Numbered from the stretch's first letter, positions 4,721-31,529 are shown. The stretch: 32,102 bases of DNA from an uncultured Caulobacterales bacterium (GCA_937924355.1 CALDSY010000223.1:1-32102), one strand, 5' to 3'. The notes: a model not told the origin generated them from the letters alone. Translations and numbers: made by a program.

Positions 4721-5161
4721 CTATTCGGTATCAGCGTCCCAGAAGCTGATATCAGTATCCTCTTCTTCGCCGCCGGGTTCACCGTCTCGACCATAGGTCA
4801 AAAGTTCAAACGGGTTTTCCTCGCCCGGATAAATATAGACATATGGATTGCCCCAAGGATCAGCCGGGAGTTTTGTCAGATAGGGGCCATTGTAGCGGGA
4901 TCCCGCGTCAACGGCATCGGGCAGTTCTACCAAAGCCTGCAAGCCAAATTCTTCGGGCGGATAATCAAACATATCGGTTTTATAAAGTTCTAGCGCCTGC
5001 CGGATTGTCGACAGGTCAGACTGAACCCGGGTTTTAACACCGCGGTCTGTGACGCCGCCCAGAGCCAGAACGGCCGCGCCCATCAAAAGGCCGATAATCA
5101 CAAGAACCGCCATCATTTCAACCAGGGTAAACCCGTCGTCGTTTTTGCGTTCATTGTCCAT
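4721..5161 (-). CDS. gspG: Major pseudopilin GspG
   Basis: Main shaft subunit of the pseudopilus, 146 aa. Leader MDNERKNDDG precedes FTLVEMMAVLVIIGLL with Glu5. Family landmarks follow: the D-x-x-TIRQALELYKTDMFDYP region, the LPADPWGNPYVY loop and a GRDGEPGGEEEDTDI tail, which corresponds to the calcium-binding C-terminal loop of GspG. The tail is longer and more acidic than usual (FWDADTE after the DI). It sits in the canonical position between gspF and gspH. Confidence 0.96.
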   Translation of the reverse strand: MDNERKNDDGFTLVEMMAVLVIIGLLMGAAVLALGGVTDRGVKTRVQSDLSTIRQALELYKTDMFDYPPEEFGLQALVELPDAVDAGSRYNGPYLTKLPADPWGNPYVYIYPGEENPFELLTYGRDGEPGGEEEDTDISFWDADTE

Positions 5162-5175
5162 TCGTTGTCTCCATA

Positions 5176-6375: not shown

Positions 6376-6384
6376 ACCACGCCC

Positions 6385-7890
6385 CTAGATTTCGATATCG
6401 GCGTCGGTCTTGGCACGGCAAACCCGCAAGACCTCTTCAGCGGATGTCAAACCGGACAGCACATGACCAAGCCCGCTTTGGAGTAGATTTTTGCGGCGCT
6501 GAAAGGCGTGGTTCGCCATATCGACTTCACGGCTGCCGTCATGGATCATGCCGCGCAGCGTATCGTCCATAACCACGGTTTCGTAGAGCCCCAGACGACC
6601 AACATAGCCGATCTGATGACATTGAGCACAGCCAACAGCTTTGAAGAAACGTAAATCTTTTTGCGGCTTTAGCCCCAAATCCATGACTTCCCGATCTACA
6701 GGCTCATAAGCGACTTTGCAATGCGGACATAGACGTCTTACCAGACGCTGCGCCACAATTGCTGTAACAGTGGAGGCCAGAAGAAACGGTTCGATGCCCA
6801 TATCGCGAAGGCGCGTAATGGCGGCCACGGCAGAATTGGTGTGGACCGTTGATAAAACCAAGTGGCCGGTCAAAGAGGCCTGCACAGCAATTTCCGCCGT
6901 TTCCGGGTCTCTGATTTCGCCGACCATAACCACATCCGGGTCTTGCCGCAATATGGCCCGCAGACCCGCCGCGAAACTCATCCCGACCTGGTTATTGACC
7001 TGTGTTTGTCCGATGCCGTCCAGAGCATATTCCACCGGGTCTTCAACTGTGAGGATATTGCGGCTGCCATCATTGAGCTGAGTCAGCGACGCGTAAAGCG
7101 ACGTCGTTTTACCCGATCCCGTGGGTCCCGTAACAAGGATAATGCCATTGGGCCTTTTGAGGGCCTTGGTGAAGGCTTCTAATTCCGTGTCGTCCATACC
7201 CAAATCGGACAGGTTCATCAGTGAACTGGTTTTCTCCAGAAGTCGCATCACCAAACGTTCGCCGTATTGGGACGGCAAGGTCGAGACGCGAACATCCACG
7301 GCCCGTTGTCCTAGATTCAGTGAAAAACGGCCGTCTTGCGGGATACGTTTTTTGGCAATGTCCAAACGCGCCATAACCTTGACCCGGCTAACCAGAACAG
7401 AGGCCAGACGCGGCGACAATGACAATGTATCGCGCAGAGCACCGTCAATCCGGAAACGGACGGCAAGACGGTTTTCATAAGGTTCAATATGGATATCCGA
7501 GGCTCGGGTCTTGATGGCTTCTTGCAGGATACCATTGATCAGTTTGATGACCGGCGCATCGTCATCACTGTCGAGCAAATCAGACGTGCGCGGGAGATTA
7601 TCTGCCAAAGAGTTCAGATCTGTGCCGTTCCCTAGAGCGGTTTCCGCCGTTTCAGTTAAATCCCCTTGCGCATAGATCCGAGCCATCAGACCTTCAAATT
7701 CAGCGGCGTCCATTGGTTCGCGCTGTACAGGCTGCCCGACCACACGGCGGGCCTCGAGAATAGCATCCAGCGGCGCATCTTTGAGCGTTGCTAGAACTGC
7801 CTTTCCGTCCTGCTCCAGCGCGATCACGCCGTATCGACGCGCGAAACTATAGGAGAGACGCGGAACGGTTATTGGATCGGCTTCGCTCAT
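6385..7890 (-). CDS. gspE: T2SS ATPase GspE
   Basis: Hexameric cytoplasmic ATPase that powers pseudopilus assembly, 501 aa. It shows the N-terminal GspE domain, Walker A GPTGSGKT (255-262), the Asp-box and Walker B region VVMVGEIRD (about 320-328), the His box TGHLVLSTVHTN (about 341-352) and a zinc-binding tetracysteine module (C388, C391, C421, C424). All of these features separate GspE from the Tad-type ATPase found elsewhere in this window. The ATG overlaps the gspD stop by four bases. Confidence 0.97.
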   Translation of the reverse strand: MSEADPITVPRLSYSFARRYGVIALEQDGKAVLATLKDAPLDAILEARRVVGQPVQREPMDAAEFEGLMARIYAQGDLTETAETALGNGTDLNSLADNLPRTSDLLDSDDDAPVIKLINGILQEAIKTRASDIHIEPYENRLAVRFRIDGALRDTLSLSPRLASVLVSRVKVMARLDIAKKRIPQDGRFSLNLGQRAVDVRVSTLPSQYGERLVMRLLEKTSSLMNLSDLGMDDTELEAFTKALKRPNGIILVTGPTGSGKTTSLYASLTQLNDGSRNILTVEDPVEYALDGIGQTQVNNQVGMSFAAGLRAILRQDPDVVMVGEIRDPETAEIAVQASLTGHLVLSTVHTNSAVAAITRLRDMGIEPFLLASTVTAIVAQRLVRRLCPHCKVAYEPVDREVMDLGLKPQKDLRFFKAVGCAQCHQIGYVGRLGLYETVVMDDTLRGMIHDGSREVDMANHAFQRRKNLLQSGLGHVLSGLTSAEEVLRVCRAKTDADIEI

Positions 7891-9761
7891 CGAGGATTAA
7901 CGAACTCGTCAATTTTAGAATATTCACGGCCTGATTGCAGCAGGTCTTCGCGGCGCATTTGGTCAAGACGACGCCGTGTCAATGGCTCGGAATCTGCCTG
8001 ACTGCGGATGATCGTCGGGCGCAGGAAAACCATCAAATTGGTTTTGATACGGCTCTTCCCTTTGGAGCGGAAGGCATTCCCCACAACAGGCAGATCACCC
8101 AGAATTGGAACTTTAGAAATATTCAGCTGTTCGTCGTCCTGGATCAAGCCGCCCAAAACGATGATCTCGCCGTCATTGGCTAGCACGGTCGTATCGATTT
8201 CCCGCTTATTTGTAATAAAGTCATTGGCAATAGATGTAATGGCTCCGGCGATAGATGAGACTTCGGATGTAATCTTCATTCGAACAACATCGCCCTCGCT
8301 GATCTGAGGTAGAACCGTCAACTTGATACCCACGTCGATACGTTCAAAAGTCCGGAACGGATTGAGGTTATCCGAGCCCAGGCTCTCACCAGTTGTAATG
8401 GGGATTTGCTGGCCGACGATGAAACTGGCCTCTTCATTATCCAGTGTTGTGACAAAGGGCGTCGAAAGAATATTCGAGTCATCATCATTTTCGATGGCGT
8501 TCAAAATTACCGAAAATAGCGTATTCCCGCTAATGCCAGCCCCGCCGACTCCGATACCGTCAATCCCGACCAGCGAGTTGACCGCGGCAGTTTCTAGGCC
8601 GCTGGTATCTACGCCCAATTGAGGTCCAGCTAGCGCGCCGGCCAAAGTCAGTAGATTTGGCGCTTGCCGGGAGAAATTGGTCCCAATGAACGGAATAGAA
8701 CTGCCGTCAACGCCGCCGAGCGCCCATTGCACGCCCAGTTCGCTAGCCGCGCTATCGCTGATTTCTACAATCAAAGCTTCGACCGTGACTTGCGGCCGGC
8801 GCACATCAAGACGGCGGATAATCTGCTCAAGAGCTTGTTGTGTTTCCCCAGACGCTGAAATTACGATGGAATTACTTCCCCGCTCATAAACAACGCTCGG
8901 CGCAGGCTGACCTTCCCTTGTGTAGGATGGCAGCAAGTTCTGGATGACCTCGTTTAGCTCTTCCCCATTGGCATAGCGGAGTGGCAGAACGCTGACAGCC
9001 CCGCGCGGGGTCAGATTGTTGGGGTTATCCATTTGCTGTAGGATTGGCAGAAGACGCCGAACTTCCGACGGCGATCCCTCTAAAATCAGACTATTTGTGC
9101 CGGGAACAGCAATGGCTCGAAACGCCGGACGCGCGCCGCCTAATGCCTTGAGTGTATCCTGAGCGTCCACAGCCGTAATATACTGAAAATTGACGGACTC
9201 GGTGACCAAACCGTTCGTGTCCATGGCGGCCACAATCTGGCGGGCCTTATAAAGGTTTTCCGGGAAATCTGTGATAACAAGAATATTGCCGCCGGCATTG
9301 GCCGTCAAAATACCTTGGGAATGCATAACCGGCTTGATCAACTTGGCTGCATCGGCGGAGTCTGCATGCTGAAGTTTGATAACGGTTGTTGCGAATTGAC
9401 CATTGTAACCCGTGCCGCTGACAAATGGCGCACTTTGTGCCGCGCCTTGCATAAGGGTTACAGAGTATTCGCCGGTGGGCGTTCGGATGACCGTATAGCC
9501 ATGAACCCGCATAACATTTTTGAAGACTTCAAAGACTTCTTTCGGGGTTAGCTTTTCTTCGGATGAAATCGTCACATTGCCTTGAACCCGCGGGTCAACA
9601 AGAAATGTTTTCCCGGTGACCATAGACACATTGTTTATGAATGCCCTGATATCGGCCTGTTGCATCGTAATTTGATGCTCTGCGGCGCCCTGGGCATAAA
9701 CAGGTACCGAGAGGCCTGTTGTCAAAGCCAGCGTCGCAAGTGTGATGGCGATTTTTTTCAT
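7887..9761 (-). CDS. gspD: T2SS outer-membrane secretin GspD
   Basis: Outer-membrane channel of the T2SS, 624 aa. A signal peptide (likely cut after VYA, residue 23) is followed by the N0 domain and N1-N3 repeats, then the secretin domain with VPILGDLPVVGNAFRSK and the beta-signal FLRPTII. A Gly-rich segment (GIDGIGVGGAGISGN) lies in the periplasmic gate/cap region. After the secretin core there is a charged tail (RRRLDQMRREDLL and onward) that could act as a pilotin-binding S-domain; no pilotin gene is visible. The ATG overlaps the gspC stop (ATGA). Confidence 0.96.
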   Translation of the reverse strand: MKKIAITLATLALTTGLSVPVYAQGAAEHQITMQQADIRAFINNVSMVTGKTFLVDPRVQGNVTISSEEKLTPKEVFEVFKNVMRVHGYTVIRTPTGEYSVTLMQGAAQSAPFVSGTGYNGQFATTVIKLQHADSADAAKLIKPVMHSQGILTANAGGNILVITDFPENLYKARQIVAAMDTNGLVTESVNFQYITAVDAQDTLKALGGARPAFRAIAVPGTNSLILEGSPSEVRRLLPILQQMDNPNNLTPRGAVSVLPLRYANGEELNEVIQNLLPSYTREGQPAPSVVYERGSNSIVISASGETQQALEQIIRRLDVRRPQVTVEALIVEISDSAASELGVQWALGGVDGSSIPFIGTNFSRQAPNLLTLAGALAGPQLGVDTSGLETAAVNSLVGIDGIGVGGAGISGNTLFSVILNAIENDDDSNILSTPFVTTLDNEEASFIVGQQIPITTGESLGSDNLNPFRTFERIDVGIKLTVLPQISEGDVVRMKITSEVSSIAGAITSIANDFITNKREIDTTVLANDGEIIVLGGLIQDDEQLNISKVPILGDLPVVGNAFRSKGKSRIKTNLMVFLRPTIIRSQADSEPLTRRRLDQMRREDLLQSGREYSKIDEFVNPR

Positions 9762-10603
9762 GATGGCACTCTTATACGAATTGTCATTTTGCGACCGCGG
9801 CGCATAATTTGAGCGGTGGGATTACCTTGGGAAATAGCGCTGACCACGGTTGATCCCAAGTCAATGCCGGGGCTGGTCAAGTCTTGCGAACCAATCCGAG
9901 TGACGATGTCACCATTTCGGAAGCCCAGAGGTTTGATGTCAAAGCCCGGTTGCGGTTCGATTTTATAACCAATCAGACGGTTATTCTCATTTTTGTGGGG
10001 TGTGATGGAGACCCGCTTGAGAAGCTCGGCTGGGTTTCCGTTGAAACCGGATTTGGAAATAGGCCGAGAGATATTTGTCTGGCCTGACTTTGTCAGCCCT
10101 GTTTCATCCCGTTCCAGTGTCAGTTTCTCCCGATTGCCATCCCTTTGAAGGATAACATAAGTGTGGTGAATGGATTCCAGCGTTACGCCGCTCGAAATCT
10201 CATCCCCGGCTCCATAAGTTTGTTGTTTACGATCCGCGCCTTCGATAATCGCCTGCTCCGGGGCCGTTGTGCCCTTGAGTTTGAGATTGAGCGTAGTGTC
10301 GGCGACGTCCGCATCCGGGTCAAAAAACTCCTGCGGTAAAGCCTCATCCGGTACGTAATCCCTGTGGAATGGGTCAAAATTATAATCAAGGCGTGGTGTA
10401 TTTGAACTTTGGCCCTTTGAACTTTGGCCTTGCCCCGCAGCTGTCGCGGTTGCCGCAGCGGGCGGCGCGATCCAGCTGCTTTGCGGATTTAGCCAGATCA
10501 TAACCGCTTTAACGATGAAGAAACACGCAAGCAGAACAAACACGCCTGTCGCGAGTTTGATCAACATCTGCGGAAATTGACCTAAGCGGGCCATAATTGG
10601 CAA
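9758..10603 (-). CDS. gspC: T2SS protein GspC
   Basis: Inner-membrane protein that couples the platform to the secretin and helps choose substrates. One membrane segment (about residues 15-37), a Pro/Ala/Gly/Gln/Ser-rich linker, the homology region (LKLKGTTAPEQAIIEG onward) and a C-terminal PDZ-like domain (GFDIKPLGFRNGDIVTRIGSQDL) are all visible. The first possible start is TTG at 10603, five bases after AAGGAG. The next is ATG at 10594, 14 bases from that Shine-Dalgarno, so the TTG may be the real start. It is the first gene of the T2SS operon. Confidence 0.93.
   Translation of the reverse strand: MPIMARLGQFPQMLIKLATGVFVLLACFFIVKAVMIWLNPQSSWIAPPAAATATAAGQGQSSKGQSSNTPRLDYNFDPFHRDYVPDEALPQEFFDPDADVADTTLNLKLKGTTAPEQAIIEGADRKQQTYGAGDEISSGVTLESIHHTYVILQRDGNREKLTLERDETGLTKSGQTNISRPISKSGFNGNPAELLKRVSITPHKNENNRLIGYKIEPQPGFDIKPLGFRNGDIVTRIGSQDLTSPGIDLGSTVVSAISQGNPTAQIMRRGRKMTIRIRVPS
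10401..10430. repeat. Two-copy 15-bp tandem repeat in the gspC linker
   Basis: TTTGAACTTTGGCCC is followed directly by TTTGAACTTTGGCCT. The repeat is in frame and encodes GQSSK-GQSSN in the periplasmic linker of GspC, just after the membrane segment. It looks like a recent slippage duplication in a flexible spacer. Confidence 0.85.
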
Positions 10604-12821: not shown

Positions 12822-14117
12822 TTACCAACGTTTCTCGAGGCGGTTGCGCAACCAGATCGCGAAACCATTAATCAGTAGCAGCACCAATAGCAGAACAATA
12901 ATACCTGCGGATGTTTTTTCCACCCAGGCACGCTCAGCGTTTCCGGCCCACATGAAGATCTGTACCGGCAAGACTGTAGCGGAGTCTGTTATGCCGTTTG
13001 GAATTTCCGTGTTGAAGTTGACCATCCCGATCATCAGCAAAGGCGCGGTTTCGCCGAGGGCTTGCGCCATAGCAATGATAGACCCTGTCAATATACCCGG
13101 CCCCGCCTGTGGGACCTTGTGATGAAACACGGCCTGAATATGTGAAGCGCCAATACTGAGCGCGCCGTCGCGGATCGATTGCGGAACCGCCATCAGGGTG
13201 GCCCTCGTTGCAATAATAACGGTGGGCAAGGCCCTTAAACCCAAGACAAGGCCGCCGACGATGGGCGCGGACCGGGGCATACCGATAAAATTGATGAATA
13301 TGGCCAGGCCAAGTACACCGAAAATAATCGACGGCACCGCGGCCAGATTATTGATGTTGATCTCGATGAAGTCGACAAAACGGTTCTTGGGCGCAAATTC
13401 ATCTAGCCAGATCGCCGCGCCAATTCCAATTGGGATCGCCAAACAGGCGGTCACCAGGAGGGTCATCAATGAGCCAATAAAGGACCCGCCAATACCGGCA
13501 AGTTCCGCATCCCGGCTGTCAGTATTGGTGAAGAACCCCGTGTTAAAACGGGACTTGATTTCTCCGGTTTCCACCAAGGCATCCACCCAAGTGATTTGCT
13601 GATCAGAAATTTTTCGGCGGTCCTCTGAAACATCGCGGGAGATATTCCCCTTGAGCAGCTGATCAACATCATCAGAAGTTGGCACGCGGATGGTCAGGGT
13701 CTGCCCCACAAGATCCGGATTATTATAAACCATTTGACGGATAAGGTTGGGGGCACCGGACGAAGAAATCACATCAAATAATTGTCGTTTGGCTTTGCGA
13801 TCTGTCACATCAGGGAAACGTTCATATAACGAGTTTTGGATAATCCGCCGATAATTACTCTTACGCAGTTCGTCCGGATCTCTGACTCCGCTGGGATCAA
13901 GAACTGACTCGGTCAATTCCACGTCCATCGTCATGTCATGTTGAATGAAAGCGTTCAGGCCGTTACCCAGCACAGTGGAAAGCAACCAAAACAATGCCAT
14001 GACAGCAATACCAATCGCCAACAATCCAAAGGCTTTGAAACGGCGCTCTTTTGCGTGACGTTTTTTGAGCCGCTTTAACGCGAATTCAGACGCATGAATG
14101 GAGTCAGATGTCGGCAT
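12822..14117 (-). CDS. pstA: Phosphate ABC transporter permease PstA, N-terminally extended
   Basis: Membrane permease of the phosphate importer, 431 aa. The C-terminal half carries the binding-protein-dependent permease domain with the EAA-like loop ([29 protein letters not shown]). A first membrane helix (about residues 30-52) is followed by a periplasmic domain of roughly 150-170 residues before the permease core. This matches the DUF3333-type extension seen in alphaproteobacterial PstA, whereas E. coli PstA is about 296 aa. The ATG shares one base with the pstC stop (TGATG). Confidence 0.95.
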
Positions 14118-15334
14118 CAGTCATACCTCGCGCGGTACCGTCTTACGATGATCAACGCGATAAAATTCAAGACAAGGGTAATGATGAAAAGCATAAGACC
14201 CAGCGCGAAAGCGGCCAGTGTTTTGGCGCTGTCGAATTCCTGATCACCGGTCAAAAGCGCAACTATTTGTACGGTCACTGTCGTGACAGCCTCGAATGGG
14301 TTGCCTGTCAAATTCGCGGCCCGACCAGCGGCCAGGACCACAATCATAGTCTCGCCAATGGCCCGGCTGACCGCCAAAAGTAAGGCGCCAATAATGCCCG
14401 GCAAGGCACCGGCAAACACAACCTTGGTCATGGTTTCTGATTTGGTCGCGCCCAGTGCGTATGATCCGTCTCGCATGGTTTGCGGCACCGCATTGATGAC
14501 GTCATCGGAAAGGGAGGACACGAAGGGTATGATCATAATGCCCATGACCAAGCCGGCTGTGATGGCGCTTTGAGTGGGAACTGAATACCCCATGGTCTCT
14601 GCCAGAGCGCGTATAGCCGGCCCGACGGTGAGGAGCGCAAAGAAGCCATAAACAACGGTCGGCACACCGGCCAGAATTTCAATGACGGGCTTGACGATTT
14701 TGCGCGTGCGATGTCCCGCATATTCGGAAAGGTATATGGCAATCATCAATCCAATGGGCGCGGACACGGCAATCGCGATAGCCATGATAAGAAAAGTGCC
14801 GGTGAATACGGGAACCGCGCCAAAGGCCCCGGATTGCCCGACCTGATCTTCGCGCATGGCGGTTTGCGGCGACCATTGCGTGCCGGTGATAAAATCAAGA
14901 AAAGGGACTTCCTCGAAGAAACGAAGGCTCTCAAACAATAGCGAAAGAACAATCCCGATGGTGGTGAAGACCGCAATCAGTGAGCAAACAACGAGTAATG
15001 TCTTGATGAAATACTCGACATAAGTGCGGGCCCGGAAATCTTTTTGAATACGGCCAGACGCTAGGAAGCTGCCAATCACGGCCACAACCAGCATAGCCAT
15101 GAGGGTTATGGGTAAGCCCAGCCCGGTCAAAAGCCCGGCAATCATCACCAAAAAAGCGCCCAAGCCAGATATTATGCCAGAAAACCAACCGTGATAACCC
15201 GGCTGCGAATGGAACCCAAGTCCAGCTCCCTTGCCAATACTGGCGATTTGGGCGCGGGCCTTACGGCGCGCAAAAACGAAAGAAGCCGCCGTTAAGGCAG
15301 CGACAACGAGCGCCAATATCAGGACCGTATTCAC
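14117..15334 (-). CDS. pstC: Phosphate ABC transporter permease PstC
   Basis: Second permease of the Pst importer, 405 aa. Extra N-terminal membrane helices (about residues 3-22 and 52-90) precede the standard permease domain, which has the EAA loop VPQTMRDGSYALGATKSET and the SRAIGETMIVVLAAG helix typical of PstC. This longer form is common in alphaproteobacteria. Translation starts at GTG, eight bases behind AGGA, just after the stem-loop that separates it from pstS. Confidence 0.95.
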   Translation of the reverse strand: MNTVLILALVVAALTAASFVFARRKARAQIASIGKGAGLGFHSQPGYHGWFSGIISGLGAFLVMIAGLLTGLGLPITLMAMLVVAVIGSFLASGRIQKDFRARTYVEYFIKTLLVVCSLIAVFTTIGIVLSLLFESLRFFEEVPFLDFITGTQWSPQTAMREDQVGQSGAFGAVPVFTGTFLIMAIAIAVSAPIGLMIAIYLSEYAGHRTRKIVKPVIEILAGVPTVVYGFFALLTVGPAIRALAETMGYSVPTQSAITAGLVMGIMIIPFVSSLSDDVINAVPQTMRDGSYALGATKSETMTKVVFAGALPGIIGALLLAVSRAIGETMIVVLAAGRAANLTGNPFEAVTTVTVQIVALLTGDQEFDSAKTLAAFALGLMLFIITLVLNFIALIIVRRYRARYD

Positions 15335-15355
15335 CTAATGATTCCTAACTGTGTT

Positions 15356-15378
15356 TCAGGCGGCATTTAGCCGCCTGA
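15356..15378 (-). other. Perfect stem-loop between pstS and pstC
   Basis: TCAGGCGGC and GCCGCCTGA form a nine-base-pair stem with a five-base loop between the pstS stop and the pstC GTG. On the transcribed (minus) strand no U-run follows, so it is not a classical terminator. An intercistronic hairpin here could protect the pstS mRNA end, allowing much more binding protein than permease to be made. Confidence 0.65.
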
Positions 15379-15398
15379 TTTTTATCTAATCAAGTCGC

Positions 15399-16499
15399 TT
15401 ATTGCGAATATGGGGTCAGGTTTTCCACAGCCGCGCGGTATTTCGCCCGTTCAGCGTCCGGCAGCGGCACCAAACCGATTTCTTCAAGATAACCACCAGG
15501 GCCCCAAGCCTCATCCGCGGTAAATTCAAGCGCGAAATCCCGTATGCCAGGATTGTCCGCCACATGGGCTTTCTTGATGTAGAAAAACAAAGACCGCGAA
15601 ATGGCATAGTCGCCGGCTGCGATGTTCTCAAATGTTGGTTCGATTCCATCGACATTGGCGCCTTTGATCTTGTCGCCGTTTTGATCAAGGAATGAGAAGC
15701 CGAAAATACCCAGAGCGGTCGGCGTATTGACCAGTGTGTTGACAATGGCATTGTCATTTTCACCAGCATCGATCCATTTTCCGTCTTCGCGGATATTATG
15801 AGAGACCTTCTTGAAGGCGCTTTTGTCTTGAGCGCGCAAGTCCTTGAGGCAGGCAAACTTTTTCGCGCCGCCTTCCATGGCGACTTCGACAAAGGCGTCG
15901 CGCGTACCCGAAGTGGGCGGCGGGCCATAAGCTTCGATGGTTGCCGCTGGGAGGCTCGCATCAATATCGGACCATTTCTTGTATGGGTTCGCTTTCAGTG
16001 TGCAATCCGTATCACTTGTCGGCACCTCTTTGGCAAAGGCCTGAAAGATCTGCTTGCTCGACAGATCCATCTGTGTGCCGTCCAGGGCATTGGCCAGAAC
16101 GATACCATCAAACCCGACCTTGACCTCGATGATGTCGCTGACACCATTGGATCCGCATTTGTCAAATTCGCTCTTTTTTTGACGGCGAGATGAATTGGTC
16201 ATATTGGGCGTTGTGGCACCAGTGCCCTCACAGAAAAGCTTGTGACCCCCGCCCGAACCGGTGGATTCCACAACCACGTTTTGACCTGTCTTGTTCTTAT
16301 ATTCCTGCGCCACCTTCGTGGAAAACGGATAAACGGTCGAAGACCCGACAACGCGGATTTCGGCCTTTTCAGCTCTTTTCGTTGCTGTTTTTGTCGTTTC
16401 GGATTTTGTGCTCGCTTTGGCCGGTACTTTGTCACCGCCTTTGCAACCGGCGATTACCAAAGCGGTCGCAGCCAGTCCTGTCATCAATATATTTTTCAT
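15399..16499 (-). CDS. pstS: Periplasmic phosphate-binding lipoprotein PstS
   Basis: High-affinity phosphate receptor of 366 aa that delivers phosphate to PstCA. It carries a lipobox (VIAGC, Cys19), so the mature protein is probably lipid-anchored, then a Lys/Thr/Ala-rich linker to about residue 47. The phosphate-binding motifs VGSSTVYPFS and STGSGGG follow, with GPPTSGTRDAF later. Four cysteines remain in the mature domain and could form two disulfides. Many gammaproteobacterial PstS proteins are soluble, so the lipobox is worth noting. AAGGGA precedes the ATG. Confidence 0.95.
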   Translation of the reverse strand: MKNILMTGLAATALVIAGCKGGDKVPAKASTKSETTKTATKRAEKAEIRVVGSSTVYPFSTKVAQEYKNKTGQNVVVESTGSGGGHKLFCEGTGATTPNMTNSSRRQKKSEFDKCGSNGVSDIIEVKVGFDGIVLANALDGTQMDLSSKQIFQAFAKEVPTSDTDCTLKANPYKKWSDIDASLPAATIEAYGPPPTSGTRDAFVEVAMEGGAKKFACLKDLRAQDKSAFKKVSHNIREDGKWIDAGENDNAIVNTLVNTPTALGIFGFSFLDQNGDKIKGANVDGIEPTFENIAAGDYAISRSLFFYIKKAHVADNPGIRDFALEFTADEAWGPGGYLEEIGLVPLPDAERAKYRAAVENLTPYSQ

Positions 16500-16528
16500 G
16501 GCATTCCCTTCATTCCTAAATGTGTGAT

Positions 16529-16544
16529 GGGGGCCGAAGCCCCC
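16529..16544 (-). other. TTCG-tetraloop hairpin between oprP and pstS
   Basis: On the minus strand GGGGGC-TTCG-GCCCCC forms a perfect six-pair GC stem closed by the very stable UUCG tetraloop, seven bases after the porin stop codon. There is no U-run behind it, so it is more likely an RNA processing or stability element than a full terminator. Confidence 0.7.
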
Positions 16545-16550
16545 AATTGC

Positions 16551-17732
16551 TTAAAAGTCAAATTGCGCGCGTAAATTAAATCCGCTGACATCTTCTTCCG
16601 TCACGCCGGCCACAACCAGGTCCGCGAACGCAGAGTCCAGACCAGATGTGCTGGTTCCAAGATTAGCATTGGCGTCAAAATAGTTCACACCTATTCGAGC
16701 GTTCTTGACTGGCCACCAATCAAGACCAATGACGAAGGTATCTAGGTCGCCACCATTGATAGAGGTATCTTCCAAATTCAGCGTGTCATACCGAGCAAAA
16801 ACCGAGACTGCACCCATACCACCATCCGTGATAGGATTGTCGACCTTTGGACGATTAAACTTGCCGCCTTTGTAGGTTTTTTTACCACCAAAGAACGCGC
16901 CTGCTTCAACATATAGGCCATCAAAGCTGGGGTCGCTTGTGCAGGTTTCGCAATCCGCATTGGTGACACCATATTCGCCCGCTGCCCAGAACTGACCCAT
17001 AATACCGGCCGCTTCAACACCCAAGAAAGTGTCTTTATCAGCGATCCGACCAGTGCTGATTATGCGACTTGGAATATGGGAAACTGGACGTTGCCGATAG
17101 CGAAGGTCGCTCTGGGTATCGCCGGTGTTCCGGATACGGGCCGATGCACCCAGGTGAACAATAATATCGTCATTTTTGACGGGATTGTATGTCCCACGGG
17201 CCGAAGCCGCTGAACCTTCTTCGTCTGAGGCGGTTGATAAATTGTCACCGAAGACACCGGCGTTTATTGTATAATTTTCGCCGCTGGTCCCAACAGCTAG
17301 ACCAATACGTCGGTTGAACTCGAAGGCATCCGTAAACATGGAACGCTCAAGTGCTGTTATAAAGCGGGAAGAGGTTAGCTCATCCAGCGAGTTGTGGGTC
17401 TTAAATTGGCCCAGCTTGACATTGAACTTTTTGCCGCCCGGATTCCACTGAAGATAGACGTCTTCTACATTGACGTCTTCACTGCTGTTTGTGTTCAGCT
17501 CGACTTTATACTTCACATCGTCGCCAAATTTACCAGAAACCCCCAGACGTAGTCGGCGGAGTTCCGTCGCATTCCAATCTGTATCCGCTGTCTCCGCGTC
17601 AACAATGGACCAATCCATCATGACCCGACCGCTGACTTTTGCGGTCATTTCTTGCGCCTGTGCCGTGTCTGCCCCAACAATCGCCAGCGCCAGTATAGTT
17701 GACGCCGCTGCCCTCTCTAAATATTTTTGCAT
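16551..17732 (-). CDS. oprP: OprP/OprO-type phosphate-selective porin
   Basis: Outer-membrane porin of 393 aa with a signal peptide (cut expected after AQA, residue 26). The rest consists of alternating beta strands and ends in the outer-membrane signal LRAQFDF with terminal Phe. Features of the OprP/OprO family include DVYLQWNPGGKKFNVKLGQFKTHNSLDELTSS near residues 92-125 and the WWPVKNARIGVNYF strand near the end. It is first in a porin-pst-phoU operon, which supports phosphate or polyphosphate as cargo. The ion selectivity itself is inferred. Its symbol follows the Pseudomonas family; close orthology is not certain. AGAGGG precedes the ATG. Confidence 0.88.
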   Translation of the reverse strand: MQKYLERAAASTILALAIVGADTAQAQEMTAKVSGRVMMDWSIVDAETADTDWNATELRRLRLGVSGKFGDDVKYKVELNTNSSEDVNVEDVYLQWNPGGKKFNVKLGQFKTHNSLDELTSSRFITALERSMFTDAFEFNRRIGLAVGTSGENYTINAGVFGDNLSTASDEEGSAASARGTYNPVKNDDIIVHLGASARIRNTGDTQSDLRYRQRPVSHIPSRIISTGRIADKDTFLGVEAAGIMGQFWAAGEYGVTNADCETCTSDPSFDGLYVEAGAFFGGKKTYKGGKFNRPKVDNPITDGGMGAVSVFARYDTLNLEDTSINGGDLDTFVIGLDWWPVKNARIGVNYFDANANLGTSTSGLDSAFADLVVAGVTEEDVSGFNLRAQFDF

Positions 17733-23534: not shown

Positions 23535-23563
23535 TTGCACGGGAACCGTCATCAACCTATAGG
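23535..23563 (+). promoter_or_regulatory. Sigma70-like promoter of the three-gene cassette
   Basis: TTGCAC (23535-23540) and TATAGG (23558-23563) are separated by exactly 17 bases in the 71-base gap after pabBC. A start near 23570 would leave a leader of about 22 bases with GGGAGG just before the ATG. This suggests the cassette is transcribed on its own as well as by read-through. Confidence 0.45.
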
Positions 23564-23591
23564 TTTTAAAACACGTAGTCGGGAGGACCTC

Positions 23592-24767
23592 ATGGCCAAG
23601 CTAAGTACACTTCAATATCTGGATAAAGCCCTGTCCGGGCTTCGTGAACTGGGCCTATTAAAAGGCGTCAGTGATCCTGTTCCTGTGGTAACACTTTTGG
23701 ATCAAATTTCAGATCTGGACGAAGCCAAGGTTACGGCCATTGCCCGCACGCTCAACCAGGCGTCTTATTTTAACGAGGTCGTGCGCGAACATGTATCCGG
23801 GATAAAAGTAGCGGAACGCTATGAAGGGATCACCACTGCGTTTAATTCAATTCGCGATGACACAAAAGCTCTGGTCGATCAGTATGCCGATGGCAAAATC
23901 AACACGATGGAAAAGGTCTCTAATCTCTGGATGAAGATGCGACGAGGCACGATTGCGGACCGCTTTGAGAAGATCAAAAATCTCTATGTGGACGTGACCG
24001 AGGAAACCTCCAATCAAATCGAACGCGAACAGCTTATATTAGAAGCCTATATGGATTTCCGAGGAGCCATGAAAAACGCCGAAGTCTTGTCTTTTGATGT
24101 TCTGAAAAAAGCTGAAAGCGAACTCGAACAGGCTAAAACTGATGTGAATTCTGCCGTGGCGACCGTGGATGCCTTTACCGGTGAAGACAAAACCGAACGG
24201 GCCACGTTAGAGCTCGACCGGGATGAAAAACTGCGCCGACTGCAAACAGCGGATAAACGTTATCAAATCTCCAAAGACCTGTCAGACAATCTGACCGTAG
24301 GATATAATACCTCTGAGGTTGTGATGGCGCGCCTCGTGCAAACTAAAAACGCCAAAGAACGTGTTTACGCCCAGAGCATTTCGTTCTTCAGTACCAATGA
24401 AGTGGTCCTGACGGCCCTCTCGGCGACGCTCACCGGAATGCACGGCCTGCACGAAAGCACGCAAACCTTGGAAGCCATGAAAAAAGGTATGAATGAGAGC
24501 CTCGAAGTTCTCGCTGAAATCGGCGACAAGGTTCAAGAGGCCGCGATTAGGTCCGGTTACGGGCCAACCGTATCAGCGGCGGCGGTCAAAAAACTGCTGG
24601 ATGCGGTTGTCTCCTACCAGGAGCGCAGTCATGATATTATTAATGAAATGCGCCGCATGGCCACCGATAACTCCAAGGAAATCCGGGTCATAGTCGAAGA
24701 CGGCAAACGTCGCCTGGCCAAGCTGGCCGAGACGGGCGCATCGCAAACTCTGATGATCGAGTCTTAA
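23592..24767 (+). CDS. TelA-like helical protein, cassette gene 1
   Basis: Soluble, almost entirely helical protein of 391 aa without signal peptide or membrane segment. The C-terminal part (about residues 265-385 of the chosen start) reads like the conserved end of TelA/KlaA toxic-anion-resistance proteins: a VVLTALSATLTGMHGL-type helix, then LEVLAEIGDKVQEAA, a short loop and a final helix pair with EMRRMATDNSKEI. The similarity is judged by eye and is distant. The middle carries coiled-coil stretches (ELEQAKTDVNSAV; LELDRDEKLRRLQ). The start at ATG 23592 is set by an excellent GGGAGG five bases before; the frame is open further upstream. It is followed by a membrane protein and a coiled-coil protein. 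Function unknown. Confidence 0.7.
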   Translation: MAKLSTLQYLDKALSGLRELGLLKGVSDPVPVVTLLDQISDLDEAKVTAIARTLNQASYFNEVVREHVSGIKVAERYEGITTAFNSIRDDTKALVDQYADGKINTMEKVSNLWMKMRRGTIADRFEKIKNLYVDVTEETSNQIEREQLILEAYMDFRGAMKNAEVLSFDVLKKAESELEQAKTDVNSAVATVDAFTGEDKTERATLELDRDEKLRRLQTADKRYQISKDLSDNLTVGYNTSEVVMARLVQTKNAKERVYAQSISFFSTNEVVLTALSATLTGMHGLHESTQTLEAMKKGMNESLEVLAEIGDKVQEAAIRSGYGPTVSAAAVKKLLDAVVSYQERSHDIINEMRRMATDNSKEIRVIVEDGKRRLAKLAETGASQTLMIES

Positions 24768-24812
24768 GGCTTTCAGCTTGCGCGAATTTGCAGCGACACT
24801 TAAGAGTTAATC

Positions 24813-25799
24813 ATGGTCAACACAGGCGATATACACAAAGCCGAGGAAAATCTTGAAAAGGCGAAATTGGACCTGTCTTCAGGTGACCAAAAGCTCGACG
24901 ATGTAATGTTGGCCATGGATGTAGTGGACACACTGCGTCACGAACAGCATATGATCGAGAAAGAGCTTATGGGCGATGAACGCCGTGAGGCTCTGGTCGC
25001 TCGGCTTCGCGACATATATCAAGCCCAGGGCATAGAGGTCACGGACGAAGTCCTGATGGACGGGGTCATGGCGCTTGAGGAGCAACGCTTTGTGTTCGAG
25101 CCGCCCAAGAAAACTTTCGGGCTGCGTCTTGCAAAGATGTATATCAACCGGGCGCGTTGGATGCCCCTTTTGACGATGTTCCTTCTGGTCATCGGCGGCG
25201 CCTGGGGCATTAATCATCTTGCCTTTGAACGCCCAGCAAAAATCCGAAACCAGCAGGTGGAAACCCTGTTGAATAAAACCCTCCCCGAGAAGCTGTCCGA
25301 TGAACGGGATCAGGCACTAGCGATCGCGGCCAATGACGACATGAAAGCCAAAGTCGACGGTTTGTACGGTCTTGCGACAGACGCGCTGGACACCAAAGAT
25401 GCCGGAAAAGTCGAGGCCTATTTGAAAGAGCTGACATTTTTGAAGAATGATCTGGGCGCCAGCTATGAGATACGTGTGGTTTCTCGCCCCAATGAGTTTA
25501 GCGGCATTTTCCGGGTCAATGAGCAAAACAATAATGTCAAAAATTACTACCTGATTGTTGAAGCCATAAATGCGGCCGGGGAAGTGGTAAACGTGCCAAT
25601 CTCCAGCGAGGAAGACCGGAAAAGCGACCGCGTCTCGATTTGGGGTGTTCGGGTCCCCGAAGCCGTCTTTAACCGGGTGGCCGCGGACAAGCGGGATGAT
25701 CAGATTATTCAGGATAGTATGGTTGGCGTGAAAAAGCGCGGCGTGCTGGAACCGGATTATAAAGTCAAAACATCCGGCGGAAAGATTCTGGAGTGGTGA
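24813..25799 (+). CDS. Single-span membrane protein (DUF6384-like), cassette gene 2
   Basis: Protein of 328 aa with a helical cytoplasmic half and one membrane segment at about residues 116-134 (WMPLLTMFLLVIGGAWGI), followed by a periplasmic half. The early motif LDDVMLAMDVVDTLRH (28-43) and the GIEVTDEVLMDGVMALEEQRF segment (73-93) look strongly conserved. I recall them from the DUF6384 family, but could not check this. The C-terminal domain (about 230-328) looks beta-rich and ends in KILEW. It follows gene 1 by 45 bases and precedes gene 3 by one base. It is probably the membrane anchor of the cassette. No enzyme motif is seen. Confidence 0.75.
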   Translation: MVNTGDIHKAEENLEKAKLDLSSGDQKLDDVMLAMDVVDTLRHEQHMIEKELMGDERREALVARLRDIYQAQGIEVTDEVLMDGVMALEEQRFVFEPPKKTFGLRLAKMYINRARWMPLLTMFLLVIGGAWGINHLAFERPAKIRNQQVETLLNKTLPEKLSDERDQALAIAANDDMKAKVDGLYGLATDALDTKDAGKVEAYLKELTFLKNDLGASYEIRVVSRPNEFSGIFRVNEQNNNVKNYYLIVEAINAAGEVVNVPISSEEDRKSDRVSIWGVRVPEAVFNRVAADKRDDQIIQDSMVGVKKRGVLEPDYKVKTSGGKILEW

Positions 25800-25800
25800 T

Positions 25801-27276
25801 ATGAAGAGCGGACTTCAAACCCTCCACGAGATTGACAAGGCTATTGCAAGAGCCCGGAACGCTGTGTCCGAGGCCTCGCGCATCCCCAAGAAAAATGCAG
25901 AAGTCCTCATGGATTTACGCCGCCAGCAAACGACCGCCTATGACAGTATTGCCCGCGAACGCCTCAGACTATTGGAAGACGGAGATGGCGGAGAGCTGGG
26001 TTATATCGACCGACAGGCAGAGAAGCTTCTAGATGATCATGTGCGGGCCCAGGAGAGCCTCGGTAAGCAATTGGATAAATCTGTTGTTGCCATTGAAAAA
26101 TACGAGGAAGAACGCCGCAAGGTAGAGGCTGAAGTCAACAAAGCTGTAGACGCTTATGACAAAGCCGCCGCGGTCGCTGAAAAAGAAATCCTACTGGACC
26201 CGGCCTATCAAGAAGCGCTGGACAATGTAGAAAAAGCCGAAAGCATGGTGATCCGGTCCTCGGAGAAACTCGAAATTGCCCGCCAAAACGAAAAGGAAAA
26301 AGGCAAACCTTATCGTAGCGACCCGTTTTTTAATTACCTCCGCAAACGCGGCTATGGCACCAAAGATGCCAAGGGTTGGTTTCTAACTAAAATGCTCGAC
26401 GGCTGGGTCGCACGAATGGTCAAATACCGAGAAATTGCGGAGAATTATCAACGCCTGACGGCGATCCCGGAACGGCTCGAAAGCCATGTCCAGTCTTTGG
26501 AAGAGCACGTCTATGAGGTTCGGGAGAACCTGGAGGCCCTCGAAGCCGATATTTTAAAACGCAAAGGCGTAACGGCGCTTCATAAAAAATCACTCGACAG
26601 TCAGGCAAAGGTCGACAAGGTTGACGAAAAAATCGCCGCTGCCGAACGAGAATATGAAACGCTGCGGGCAAAGCATCAGCAAATGGCGGCGGGTGAAACC
26701 GGTCCCTATAATGACGCCATCAATATTGTGTCAGAGGGGCTTCGGCGGATCAAATACTCAGATCTCCGGCGACTGGCAGCGCAGACCACGTCACGCGAAG
26801 ATGATGACGCGATCGAAGCTATCAGAGAATTGGCGCGCGCGGCAGATGAGCTGGAAGATGATCATAAGGATGCCAAAAAGCTGATCAAAAAATATGAGCG
26901 GACCTTGCGGGATCTCGAAGATGTTCGGCGTCAATTTAAGAACCGCCGCTATGATGCGCCGTCTTCTGTTTTCGATAATGATCTGGTGGGGGCCATCCTG
27001 ATCCAGGTTCTATCGGGCGCTATGAGCGGCGATAATCTTTGGCGACAAATCGAACGGGCACAGAGAACAATTCGCCGGTATTCGGACAATGATTTTGGCG
27101 GCGTTGACTGGACCGAAGGTTTAAGATTGCCAAGGGCGTCGCGACAAACTCGGCGTAGTCCCCGCATTCGAACGTCTATTCCAAGGACCCCCCGGACAAG
27201 CCTACCGAGAAGACCCACGATCCGGCGTTCCTCAGGGCGAAGTTCCGGCGGTTTCCGGACGGGCGGCGGTTTCTAG
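25801..27276 (+). CDS. Coiled-coil protein with Arg/Ser/Gly-rich tail, cassette gene 3
   Basis: Cytoplasmic protein of 491 aa, predicted to be mostly long coiled coils (about residues 60-170, 230-300 and 335-380). A compact, probably conserved core lies at about 175-230 (DPFFNYLRKRGYG ... DGWVARMVKYREIAENYQRL). A second one with FDNDLVGAILIQVLSGAMSGDNLWRQI lies near 390-425. The last 50 residues are low-complexity and very basic (repeats of RRSPR, IPRTPR, LPRR, RRSSGRSSGG), ending in GGGF. GGAG stands seven bases before the ATG, and the stop of gene 2 is one base away. The last 45 bases overlap tadD on the other strand. I do not recognise the family. Confidence 0.78.
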   Translation: MKSGLQTLHEIDKAIARARNAVSEASRIPKKNAEVLMDLRRQQTTAYDSIARERLRLLEDGDGGELGYIDRQAEKLLDDHVRAQESLGKQLDKSVVAIEKYEEERRKVEAEVNKAVDAYDKAAAVAEKEILLDPAYQEALDNVEKAESMVIRSSEKLEIARQNEKEKGKPYRSDPFFNYLRKRGYGTKDAKGWFLTKMLDGWVARMVKYREIAENYQRLTAIPERLESHVQSLEEHVYEVRENLEALEADILKRKGVTALHKKSLDSQAKVDKVDEKIAAAEREYETLRAKHQQMAAGETGPYNDAINIVSEGLRRIKYSDLRRLAAQTTSREDDDAIEAIRELARAADELEDDHKDAKKLIKKYERTLRDLEDVRRQFKNRRYDAPSSVFDNDLVGAILIQVLSGAMSGDNLWRQIERAQRTIRRYSDNDFGGVDWTEGLRLPRASRQTRRSPRIRTSIPRTPRTSLPRRPTIRRSSGRSSGGFRTGGGF

Positions 27277-28143
27277 CGCCTCTAATTTGTCCAGATTGGC
27301 CTGTGCCTTGGCATGGTAAATTGGACTGATATCCAGCGCTCTTAAAAACAAGCGGCGGGCCATATTGGTTTTTTGACGCGACATGGCAACATAGCCCGCA
27401 TCATTTAGAATATCAGCAGATCGGACTTCATCAATGTCGTCCAAAGCCGCCTGCAAATCTCCCTCAAGAATAAAAACCATCCGCAGATTGTTTTCATAAA
27501 CTTTGTTTCCCGGCGTCAAGGCGATGGCTTGCTCAAACTTGTCTTGGGCTTCTTCGAGACGATCCTGCAGCAAAAGCGACATACCCATATTATTGATAGT
27601 TCCCGCGCGCCATTTTCCGGATTTCATGGCTTCTATATAAGACGCCAAAGCGTCCATCCATTCACCTTGTTTGTCATGATAGTGCCCTTTGGCATTCCAC
27701 AGACGTGGATCATTGGGGCTCAGGACCATTCCATTATTGATGGCGTTCACAGAGTTTTCGTAACGCGCCGTGTAAATCCCGGATAATATTTTCCCGATTT
27801 TAAAGCTACGTTCCCCGGATAGATCCTCTGTCCAGGAGTGATCCCAGAAAATGCGCGCAGCCTGTTGATACTCGCCGAGCGCCAGAAAAACTTTCCCCTG
27901 CCCCAATAGGGCGTCCTTGCGCTGTGGGTCATAAGCCAAGACTTTTTTATACCCGTTCAAGGCATCCAAATAATTCTCGTTTTTGAAATCCGATTGGGCG
28001 GCGGCAAAAACCTCTTCGACGTCAAACGGGTCTGACTTAATGGTTTGGACAGGCTCGATACTAACCGGCGTAATGTCGACTTCGGGTGTGGAGGCACAGC
28101 CCATCAACATAACCGATAGTCCAATGACGAGTCCGGTTCTCAT
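27232..28143 (-). CDS. tadD: Tad pilus TPR lipoprotein TadD
   Basis: Lipoprotein of 303 aa with lipobox LMGC (Cys16) and a chain of TPR motifs from about residue 45 to 290 (for example ENYLDALNGYKKVLAYDP, DRLEEAQDKFEQAIALTP and ARRLFLRALDISP). TadD helps assemble the Tad secretin and pilus. It is the last gene of the tadZABCD run, and its ATG overlaps the tadC stop by four bases. The 3' end is antisense to the tail of the coiled-coil gene. Confidence 0.9.
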   Translation of the reverse strand: MRTGLVIGLSVMLMGCASTPEVDITPVSIEPVQTIKSDPFDVEEVFAAAQSDFKNENYLDALNGYKKVLAYDPQRKDALLGQGKVFLALGEYQQAARIFWDHSWTEDLSGERSFKIGKILSGIYTARYENSVNAINNGMVLSPNDPRLWNAKGHYHDKQGEWMDALASYIEAMKSGKWRAGTINNMGMSLLLQDRLEEAQDKFEQAIALTPGNKVYENNLRMVFILEGDLQAALDDIDEVRSADILNDAGYVAMSRQKTNMARRLFLRALDISPIYHAKAQANLDKLEALETAARPETAGTSP

Positions 28144-29069
28144 AAGGCCAGCCCTTCGGAGAGCCTCAGAATAGCTGGCGTTAGGAGGATAGCCATAATC
28201 GCGGGAAAAATGAAAAATATCAGCGGAACAGTCATTTTTGCCGGCAAAGCCATAGCCTTTTCTTCGGCTCGCATTTGACGCTTATTGCGCATTTCATCAG
28301 AAAAAGTCCGCAGCGAACCGCCAAGGCTTGAGCCCATTTCTTCGGACTGCCGGATCATCACCGCCAGGGCGCGAGCTTCCTCCATATTGACGCGATTAGC
28401 AAAATTCATCATGCCGACATTACGCTCGCGTCCGGCGCGCAGTTCCATATTCAACAGGTCCAGATTGATTTTAAGGGCCGGATAACGATGGCCGATTTCA
28501 TCCGCCACTCTTATCAAGGCAGCGTTCATTCCCAGACCGGCTTCGATACAGGCAACCAATAGATCCATCATATCCGGAAAGCCGTTTCGATTTTGCTGAG
28601 TTCTGCGGCTTTCTTTCCATCGGACAAACAAAATGGGGGCAAGCGCACCCAAAGCGATCAACACAATACTGATCATCCCGGCCTGCATGGGCTCGAAGGC
28701 CGGTGCAAAATAGGCCATGCCGAGCATGAAGATCATTTGCGGCCCAACAATCGCCAATAAGCGGATAGCATAGTAAGTCTTTACGCTGGACGAACCATAA
28801 TAACCGGCCCTAGCGAGTTGCGCCCGGATTTTGGATATTTCTTCTTCACCCGGAAGTGTCAGGTGATTGGCGAAGTTATCAAATGCCTTATTGCCTCGCA
28901 GGATTGTGCCCGTATCTTGATCGTTCCAACTGCCGTCCAGCCGGGCTTTAATTAGCTTTTGATCCGCGAGGGCTTCCCGGATCGCCATAAATATTAGAAC
29001 AAAAGCGATGGCCGTAAAAACCAGCGAAATGCCCAATATTAATCCATTTGATGAGAAACCGGACAACAT
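28140..29069 (-). CDS. tadC: Tad pilus inner-membrane protein TadC
   Basis: Polytopic platform protein of 309 aa of the T2SSF family. One N-terminal helix (about residues 8-30), two more around 105-150 and a C-terminal pair (TVPLIFFIFPAIMAILLTPAIL) frame a T2SSF domain at about 170-295. That domain contains DLLVACIEAGLGMNAALIRVADEI and EEMGSSLGGSLRTFSDEMRNKRQMRAEEKA, which are typical of TadC. It pairs with TadB beneath the pilus. It begins two bases after the tadB stop. Confidence 0.94.
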   Translation of the reverse strand: MLSGFSSNGLILGISLVFTAIAFVLIFMAIREALADQKLIKARLDGSWNDQDTGTILRGNKAFDNFANHLTLPGEEEISKIRAQLARAGYYGSSSVKTYYAIRLLAIVGPQMIFMLGMAYFAPAFEPMQAGMISIVLIALGALAPILFVRWKESRRTQQNRNGFPDMMDLLVACIEAGLGMNAALIRVADEIGHRYPALKINLDLLNMELRAGRERNVGMMNFANRVNMEEARALAVMIRQSEEMGSSLGGSLRTFSDEMRNKRQMRAEEKAMALPAKMTVPLIFFIFPAIMAILLTPAILRLSEGLAL

Positions 29070-29071
29070 GA

Positions 29072-30034
29072 CTATACCTTGAAGTTAATCATTTTGCGAA
29101 TGACCATATTGCCGATGAACATCCAGATGATGATACCGCAGAACACATAATTCAAAATCGGATTATCGGAAACTTCGCCAAAGAAGTCCGGGGCCAGCAT
29201 CTGAATGACGAAATATAGACCTATGGGGGCGGCATTCAAAATAAGGGCGGAGGCCCGTCCTTCGGCCGAAGACGCCTTGATTTTTAACCGTAGGCGCTGA
29301 CGCGCCCGGATGGTTGATGCATTGCCTTCTAAAAGTTCCGCCAGATTGCCGCCGGTTTTTTCCTGAAGACGAACCATGGCCGCAAAGAGATCAAAATCTT
29401 CCTGACCGATCCGGTCCGCCATGCGCTGAATGGCGGTACTGACCGTTCCGCCAAAACCCAATTCATCAGAGGCCATACCAAATTCTGAACCGATAGGATC
29501 AGGCAGCTCCCGGCCCGCCAATGACAATGCAACCGGCACAGGATGTCCGGCCCTTAGGGACCGGATAATAACGTCAAGGGCCTCCGGCAATTGCCGGGAC
29601 GCTTTGCGTTGTCGCCGCTTCACAAAGAACCTTAATATCAAGAGTGGTAATAGTGTGCCCAATAAGAAGAGCAAAGAAATCGTGATAGCAGAACGCCCAT
29701 ACATCAGACCGGCCGCGGACAATGAAACGGCCAGCAAGATCATGGCAACGTAAACCAAATGGGCCCGTAAATTGAGCCCGGATTGCGTCACCATTTTACC
29801 GACCCGATAATTTAGGCTGTTAAAATAGCCATCATCGGTCAGGCCTCTATCGTGGCGCATTTTAGCCAGTAACTCATCGGCCGTTTCGACGCGGTCTTTT
29901 AGCTTTTCATGCAAGTTATTGTGGGCGCGGCGGCGTTTAATCTCGCGCCCAGCCCCCACTAGAGCACTTAGGGCCAGGAACACACTGGCAAAGACCAGAC
30001 AAAAAAGGACCAGCGCTTTTGGATCATTCATCAT
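29072..30034 (-). CDS. tadB: Tad pilus inner-membrane protein TadB
   Basis: Platform protein of 320 aa with an N-terminal helix (LVLFCLVFASVFLALSALVG), two helices around 95-135 and a C-terminal helix. Its T2SSF domain (about 155-280) has PEALDVIIRSLRAGHPVPVALSLAGRELPDPIGSEF and LQEKTGGNLAELLEGNASTIRARQRLRLKIKASSAEGRASA, classic TadB landmarks. The start lies in the end of tadA with two adjacent ATGs (30034 and 30031), giving an 11-base overlap and likely coupling. Confidence 0.94.
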   Translation of the reverse strand: MMNDPKALVLFCLVFASVFLALSALVGAGREIKRRRAHNNLHEKLKDRVETADELLAKMRHDRGLTDDGYFNSLNYRVGKMVTQSGLNLRAHLVYVAMILLAVSLSAAGLMYGRSAITISLLFLLGTLLPLLILRFFVKRRQRKASRQLPEALDVIIRSLRAGHPVPVALSLAGRELPDPIGSEFGMASDELGFGGTVSTAIQRMADRIGQEDFDLFAAMVRLQEKTGGNLAELLEGNASTIRARQRLRLKIKASSAEGRASALILNAAPIGLYFVIQMLAPDFFGEVSDNPILNYVFCGIIIWMFIGNMVIRKMINFKV

Positions 30035-31529
30035 GTCCGATCCGCTCCGCTATGGTTTCCTCATAAATGCGTCCAATTGGAAGTACTTTGGGCTCGAATA
30101 TGCCTTCGGGTATCGGAATGTTCCGGGTTGTGATTTCGTGCAGGCATTTCGGCCGAATGCCGGTCGCTCTGAACTCGCCTATCACCTCGTTTTCGGGGCC
30201 CGTCCCGGTCCGAGTGTAATTGAACAATTCCTGCATCTGAATGACCGCGCCTTCCATTCCGGTGATTTCGGCCACAGAGGTAATCTTTCGCTGACCATCA
30301 GAGAGCCTTTGAGCTTGGACAATGATCCCAATGGCGCTGGCGATCTGGCCCGCCACAGCTTCTGGCGTAATCTTCATATCCCCCATGGCAACCATTTGCT
30401 CCAGACGCGTGATCGCGTCTCTGGGCGTGTTGGCGTGAAGGGTCGCCATTGACCCCTCGTGACCTGTATTCATGGCTTGCAGCATGTCAAAGGCTTCTTC
30501 GCCCCGCACCTCGCCCAAGACGACGCGATCAGGTCGCATCCGCAGGGCGTTTTTGACCAATTCGCGCTGACGGATTTCGCCTTTACCTTCGATATTTGGC
30601 GGTCGCGTTTCCATGCGCGCCACATGGGGTTGTTGCAATTGCAGCTCGGCCGCATCTTCGATCGTAATCAAGCGTTCCTTATGACTGATCGATTGCGACA
30701 GCGCGTTTAACAGGGTCGTCTTACCGGAACCGGTTCCGCCAGAGATCAGTATCGTTACCCGAGCACGGCACGCTGCAGCAAGGAACTGCGCGACGCCGTC
30801 TGGTACGGCGTCAAACTCCACGAGCTTGTCCAGTGTAAATGGCTTCTTGGAAAATTTCCGAATGGAAACCAACGGGCCATCGACGGCCAAGGGCGGTATG
30901 GCCACATTCACCCGGCTACCATCCAGCAATCTGGCATCGGCCAAAGGCTGGCTCTCATCTACGCGCCGGCCCACAGTCGCCACGATCCGGTTGATAATCC
31001 GCATTAGGTGTTCTTCGCTGGCGAAATAGACATTGGACAGCTCCAACTCTCCGCCCCGTTCCACATAAACCTGTTTGTGCGTATTGATCAGAATGTCCGA
31101 CACGCTGTCATCCTGCAACAAGACTTCGAGAGGACCTAACCCGACCATTTCGTTGATGATACCGGACACCAATTCGTTGAATTGGTCACGATTTAGCGTG
31201 CGGTTTTCCTTGGCGATTAGATCACGAATGACGACACTGACATGGCGCCGCATTTCGCTTTCGCTCAGGCCTTCCAGCGTGCTGAGATCGATTTCGTCCA
31301 ATAATTTGCCATGCAGATAAATTTGCGATTCCAGCGCCTGCGCCCGGTCTTCCGGAGACGAGAACGCCTCGTTTTTGCGGCGGTCCTTCTTTGCAAGAGC
31401 TGGTGTGTCTTTGACGCTTTCGATCAAACTTTCAGGACCATCTGCAACAGTTTCGGCACCATCATGCCCCTGTTTGTCCCGCACATAATTGGGCGATTCC
31501 GCCCCTAATATTTTTGAAAAACGTCCCAT
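30024..31529 (-). CDS. tadA: Tad pilus ATPase TadA (CpaF)
   Basis: Cytoplasmic secretion ATPase of 501 aa that drives extension and probably retraction of Flp/Tad pili. Walker [10 protein letters not shown] (264-272), the Asp box around [11 protein letters not shown] (288-298), Walker [12 protein letters not shown] (335-345) and the His box [12 protein letters not shown] (356-367) are intact. An N-terminal low-complexity region of about 60 residues precedes the conserved part. Unlike GspE it has no tetracysteine zinc module. AGGGG precedes the ATG in the gap after tadZ. Confidence 0.96.

Follow-up and report, generated by a model that had tools for sequence, protein, structure and literature searches.

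Three consecutive genes in the 32,102-nucleotide stretch of DNA analyzed here (the window), designated g1, g2, and g3, are conserved as an obligate unit, far beyond chance, and the third of them encodes a conserved C-terminal peptide that is a new finding. No characterized homolog of g1, g2, or g3 was found in searches of Pfam, NCBIfam, PHROGs, PADLOC, and fold databases, and DUF6384, the domain of unknown function to which g2 belongs, is unmentioned in the literature searched (5.39 million papers, open-license only). For these reasons, we rate the trio as an undescribed system, a label that here signifies that none of its components can be placed in a family of known function; the statement in the initial annotation that no role is known for this arrangement holds. 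Our preferred reading, to which we assign a probability of roughly 40%, is a membrane-tethered scaffold module at the inner membrane, in which g2 would gather g1 and g3 and which, more tentatively, may have an envelope-protecting job.

Table 1. Features of the g1-g2-g3 module, in coordinates of the window.
Feature	Position	Strand	Description
Shine-Dalgarno GGGAGGA of g1	23581..23587	+	read directly
g1	23592..24767	+	391 aa, helical, cytosolic, in no known family
g2	24813..25799	+	328 aa, DUF6384 (PF19911), single transmembrane span, structure model with pLDDT 86
g2 N-terminal motif LDDVMLAMDVVDTLRH	24894..24941	+	residues 28-43; cytosolic side; proposed partner-docking site
g2 transmembrane span	25167..25223	+	residues 119-137; N-in/C-out by charge bias
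g2 C-terminal beta domain	25458..25796	+	residues 216-328; probably periplasmic
g3	25801..27276	+	491 aa, coiled-coil, conserved central region, disordered-looking basic Gly/Ser tail
g3 C-terminal peptide FRTGGGF-COOH	27253..27273	+	family motif at the extreme C-terminus

Organization and inheritance of the trio

The initial annotation had described a cassette of three consecutive genes with gaps of 45 bases (g1-g2) and 1 base (g2-g3); direct reading of the plus strand confirms the positions of the genes and both gaps. The start codon of g1 is the ATG at 23592, an assignment supported by the Shine-Dalgarno sequence that precedes it. A longer open reading frame beginning at TTG 23535 was rejected because the homologs start at ATG. 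The pabB gene ends 71 bp before the start of g1 on the same strand, and transcriptional read-through from pabB into g1 is therefore possible. The claim that g1 has its own promoter-like sequence was not supported: the promoter scan found nothing above its threshold before g1, the sole candidate (TTGCAC-17-TATAGG, 23535-23563) agreed with the consensus at 7 of 12 positions and fell under that threshold, and none of the motifs tested was common to the relatives. EcfG, RpoE, and RpoH promoter motifs were unenriched upstream of 51 copies of the module.

At its other end, the module meets a convergent TPR lipoprotein-like gene (27232-28143, minus strand) that shares 45 bp, in antisense, with the 3′ end of g3, such that the stop codon of each gene falls within the coding sequence of the other; a tad/Flp-type cluster (28140-31529) adjoins this gene. 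Elsewhere in the window, positions 35-10603 and 12822-17732 are taken up by genes for type II secretion, in a cluster, and for phosphate transport; these are ordinary and apparently unrelated to the module.

Do the three genes constitute one system, with one of the three partners anchored in a membrane, as had been claimed? Co-occurrence, gene order, translational coupling in numerous relatives, and correlated divergence strongly support this proposal, and the neighborhood survey did not find the homologs to be mostly alone or with other partners. The DUF6384 model scored above its cut-off in 40 of 299 genomes of the order. Two of these 40 carry fragments only: one (G417) is decayed, with g3 and a piece of g2 remaining, and the other (G666) is interrupted by a contig end. 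The g1 profile was detected in 38 of the 299 genomes, and these are identical to the 38 that have a full-length g2. A single-protein search for g3 in 150 genomes of the order returned 14, all of them g2-positive and none without g2. At all 41 independent intact loci (including L047, where a contig end cuts g3), the genes are arranged as g1-g2-g3 on one strand, and the genes flanking the module differ between genera. The g1-g2 junction is an overlap of -4 (ATGA) in 11 of 40 cases, and the g2-g3 gap lies between -7 and 9 in 32 of 40. The pairwise divergences of g1, g2, and g3 across 50 modules are correlated (r of 0.87-0.91), a level that no permutation reached. From these data, we infer a putative physical g1-g2-g3 complex; genes that serve one pathway without contact between their products would be expected to co-occur and to diverge at equal rates as well.

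Variant loci were also encountered. In two genomes from a different family, g2 and g3 are separated by an additional gene of about 204 aa (L056:8516-9130 and L052:7512-8312); its HYHTWDH/YYHD sequences recall HD-domain hydrolases, and it has no Pfam match. The locus L074:6360-8196 is a decaying copy in which g1 is gone, g2 is reduced to its C-terminal 99 residues, and g3 is open.

The three proteins

The best-conserved member of the trio is g1, with a mean identity of 72% among chromosomal copies. It falls into no Pfam or NCBIfam family above the curated cut-offs. The initial annotation called this protein helical, in agreement with a structure model that is all-helical at moderate confidence (pLDDT 68, pTM 0.55). 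When the model was compared to the PDB using Foldseek, only generic long-helix proteins were returned, with no match at E < 0.001. Residues 262-283 form a conserved, moderately hydrophobic stretch.

By contrast with its partners, g2 has a family: residues 24-328 align to positions 4-308 of the 308-position PF19911 model (E = 8.6e-109; 363.8 bits against a curated cut-off of 25), making it a full-length member of DUF6384. Pfam assigns this family no function and has no family entry for g1 or g3, the constant partners of DUF6384, or for the peptide at the C-terminus of g3. The single span and the conserved motif that had been attributed to g2 were both recovered, the former as a hydrophobic segment and the latter with a core that is conserved across 41 homologs. 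In the structure model, N-terminal helices (the LDDxMLAMDxVDTLRH region) are followed by the span, a three-helix segment, and the C-terminal beta domain, which is better conserved than the rest of g2 when the most distant copies are considered. Lys and Arg residues together number 4.5 before the span vs. 3.1 after it, and acidic residues 0.6 vs. 3.3. This charge bias favors an N-in/C-out topology in 40 of 51 homologs, although the Lys+Arg difference (4.5 vs. 3.1) is not decisive; the helical domains are probably cytosolic and the beta domain probably periplasmic. A fold search of the PDB matched g2 to generic three-helix bundles only and the beta domain to nothing. The one significant match in BFVD was G4KKD0, a 440-aa protein that is unnamed there and has the same length as g191 of the Yersinia phage phiR1-37.

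The description of g3 as a coiled-coil protein with a basic Ser/Gly-rich tail proved accurate. The protein has no Pfam or NCBIfam family above the curated cut-offs, and its conserved central region reads KGxPYxxDPLFxYL...DxWVAxxxxY...NYxRL. Beyond it lies the Gly/Ser-rich tail, mostly basic and disordered-looking. In 48 of 51 g3 copies, the extreme C-terminus conforms to [FW]-x-[TS]-[GSD]-[GDRK]-x-[FLI], compared to 0.02 expected in shuffled tails, for a pattern that was drawn up after the tails had been inspected; no other open reading frame among the 644 of the module loci has it. Most alphaproteobacterial copies carry the peptide as FKTGGGF; those of Pseudomonas and phage have an FSTSDSF-like version. 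Because this terminal motif is kept while the surrounding tail changes, it is best read as a putative docking peptide.

Chromosomes, megaplasmids, and phages

The module is rare beyond the order: it was found in 3 of 385 genomes class-wide, a count that includes the window's own genome and one weak match below the cut-off, in 4 of 397 phylum-wide, the window's own genome counted, and in none of 14 control genomes. In the window's genus, it directly follows pabB in four of the five genomes examined. Using tblastn, we located it on megaplasmids from rhizobia, Methylorubrum, and Pseudomonas that range in size from 323 kb to 1.39 Mb; the presence of g1, g2, and g3 was verified for at least nine of these. 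Carriers include Methylorubrum extorquens AM1, on its megaplasmid, and Pseudomonas sp. Leaf58. In one genome of another order (G755), two copies are present (L076 and L077); L077 has a g1 nearly identical to one found in the window's order, and the flanks of these two copies are shared, which may reflect contig contamination or recent transfer.

The module is also complete in the jumbo phage phiR1-37, where the homologs of g1 (g190; E = 4.3e-134), g2 (g191; E = 2.5e-35), and g3 (g192; E = 9.2e-9) follow one another as they do in bacteria. The phage version differs in its larger g2 homolog (440 aa) and in a Ser-rich g3 tail that ends in FSSSDSF. These phage genes are annotated as hypothetical and are unmarked as structural; the phage transcriptomics study PMC4848604 makes no statement on them, PHROGs gave nothing informative for the module proteins, and scans of IMG/VR returned phiR1-37 itself only. 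Another phage, Dfl-JY45, encodes g2 and g3; g1 is undetectable in the whole record, and the conserved N-terminal subdomain of its g2, including the motif region, is degenerate. This single case fits an arrangement in which the N-terminal region of g2 would bind g1.

In a tree of g1, the members of the window's family group together in a single clade, and the phage sequence is placed, on long branches, with those from Pseudomonas plasmids. Overall, the module seems to have been passed on mainly by vertical descent, to which losses and occasional transfer have added. A fixed trio without a characterized homolog, chromosomal g1 copies at about 72% identity, and a peptide kept from bacteria to phage together point to an undescribed and specific molecular machine. 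DUF6384 hereby gains two constant partners and a concrete, if putative, docking motif, and three hypothetical genes of phiR1-37 gain a cellular counterpart.

A possible role at the inner membrane and its alternatives

We propose that the trio may be a self-contained inner-membrane module. Anchored in the inner membrane, g2 would expose its helical segments and the LDDxMLAMDxVDTLRH region to the cytosol and its small beta domain to the periplasm, and it would recruit the soluble, helical g1 and the coiled-coil g3 to the membrane. The F-x-[T/S]-x-x-x-F peptide at the C-terminus of g3, borne on a flexible basic tail, would dock into a pocket on one of the other two proteins, g1 or g2. No catalytic domain is recognizable in the assembly, which could work as a scaffold or coat whose job would be to guard the inner membrane or to signal its damage; it would resemble Psp and TelA in purpose, not in ancestry. 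In a lytic jumbo phage, it could preserve the host membrane through a long infection or exclude competitors. Envelope protection is a best guess that we advance tentatively, because it would be the most economical job for a module from which bacteria, megaplasmids, and a lytic giant phage all benefit. The most specific version of the idea, namely a membrane-coating machine (helical subunit, single-span anchor, and coiled-coil filament with a docking peptide) by which bacteria, megaplasmids, and giant phages would all guard the inner membrane, is possible but doubtful. The missing envelope-stress promoter motif upstream of the module counts against a protective role; module neighbors without a shared theme and the middling g1 model (pLDDT 68) likewise count against an envelope scaffold.

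The initial annotation had termed g1 TelA-like and had pointed to the link of TelA relatives with envelope stress and with toxic-anion or phage-type resistance; neither sequence nor profile tests support such an inherited role. The resemblance to TelA/KlaB (PF05816) consists of a soluble, all-helical protein of similar length, and both kinds of gene occur on IncP-type plasmids. However, no match of g1 to PF05816 was listed at E values up to 1, and hhalign against TelA profiles gave probabilities of 0.1-0.3, compared to 100 for a control pairing plasmid and chromosomal TelA. The gene partners also differ. In 24 of 120 genomes of the order, TelA has a gene of its own, and the PF05816 model finds none in the window's genome. 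We thus regard a divergent TelA/KlaB toxic-anion-resistance operon as very improbable. The PspA/Vipp1 (Psp) system shares the layout of a soluble helical protein with a membrane partner, and possibly an envelope role, but no match to PF04012 (PspA/IM30) was listed for g1, g2, or g3, and a PspA gene distinct from the trio is present on a different contig of the window's genome. Profile-profile probabilities against PspA were 0.6 for g1 and 10 for g3, on a scale where PspA's own control reached only 14.8. In the excerpted text of the Psp survey PMC11237479, no passage describing the trio was found; the literature on TelA and stress likewise yielded no statement on the module genes. Could g1 itself instead enter the membrane, as an alpha-pore-forming or coat-type protein whose insertion is controlled by g2 and g3, yielding a perforating or remodeling switch? 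Chains of tripartite alpha-pore-forming toxins (AhlB, SmhB, and XaxA) do rank high in Foldseek, with probabilities of up to 1.00, and the stretch at residues 262-283 would suit such a protein. Yet the toxin chains reach TM-scores of at most 0.46 (query) and no E value below 0.001, for a g1 model of limited confidence, and the ranking places chemoreceptors and axonemal coiled coils just as high, so the likeness is probably that of generic long helices. A switch of this kind seems quite improbable.

The main rival to the envelope scaffold is defense against phages or plasmids, or superinfection exclusion, in which infection would be sensed at the membrane and then blocked or answered by cell killing; the phage copy would keep out competing phages. 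The patchy presence of the module in the order and class, the decayed copy in G417, the occurrence of the module on megaplasmids and in a jumbo phage, the proximity of the P. aeruginosa PA83 copy to type IV CRISPR genes, and the combination of membrane and coiled-coil proteins all comport with this explanation. Against it, PADLOC had no match for g1 or g2 and only weak coiled-coil matches for g3 (best E = 2.5e-5), and the 146 flanking genes contained five defense-model families with one member each and no clear island. Within families of the order, the module is mostly inherited vertically, and four genomes from the window's genus keep it stably at one site; g1, moreover, is not fast-evolving but very strongly conserved. 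On balance, defense appears unlikely. It is improbable that the trio is instead a membrane-tethered, cytoskeleton-like filament that organizes large replicons or cell morphology and is unrelated to stress: the module is chromosomal in the order and missing from most of its genomes, and no common morphology or replication genes are found nearby, even though g3 is filament-like and all plasmid copies reside on very large plasmids, with the one phage genome measuring 262 kb.

The surroundings of the module were also inspected on the Pseudomonas megaplasmids. A fourth module gene after g3 was considered and discarded, as the two genes compared at that position are unrelated. On three of these plasmids (L083, L112, and L113), a dCTP deaminase (dcd) gene occurs shortly after the module, and two genes beside chromosomal copies of the module also belong to the dCTP-deaminase family; phiR1-37 is described in an excerpt of PMC12697855 as a deoxyuridine-DNA phage.
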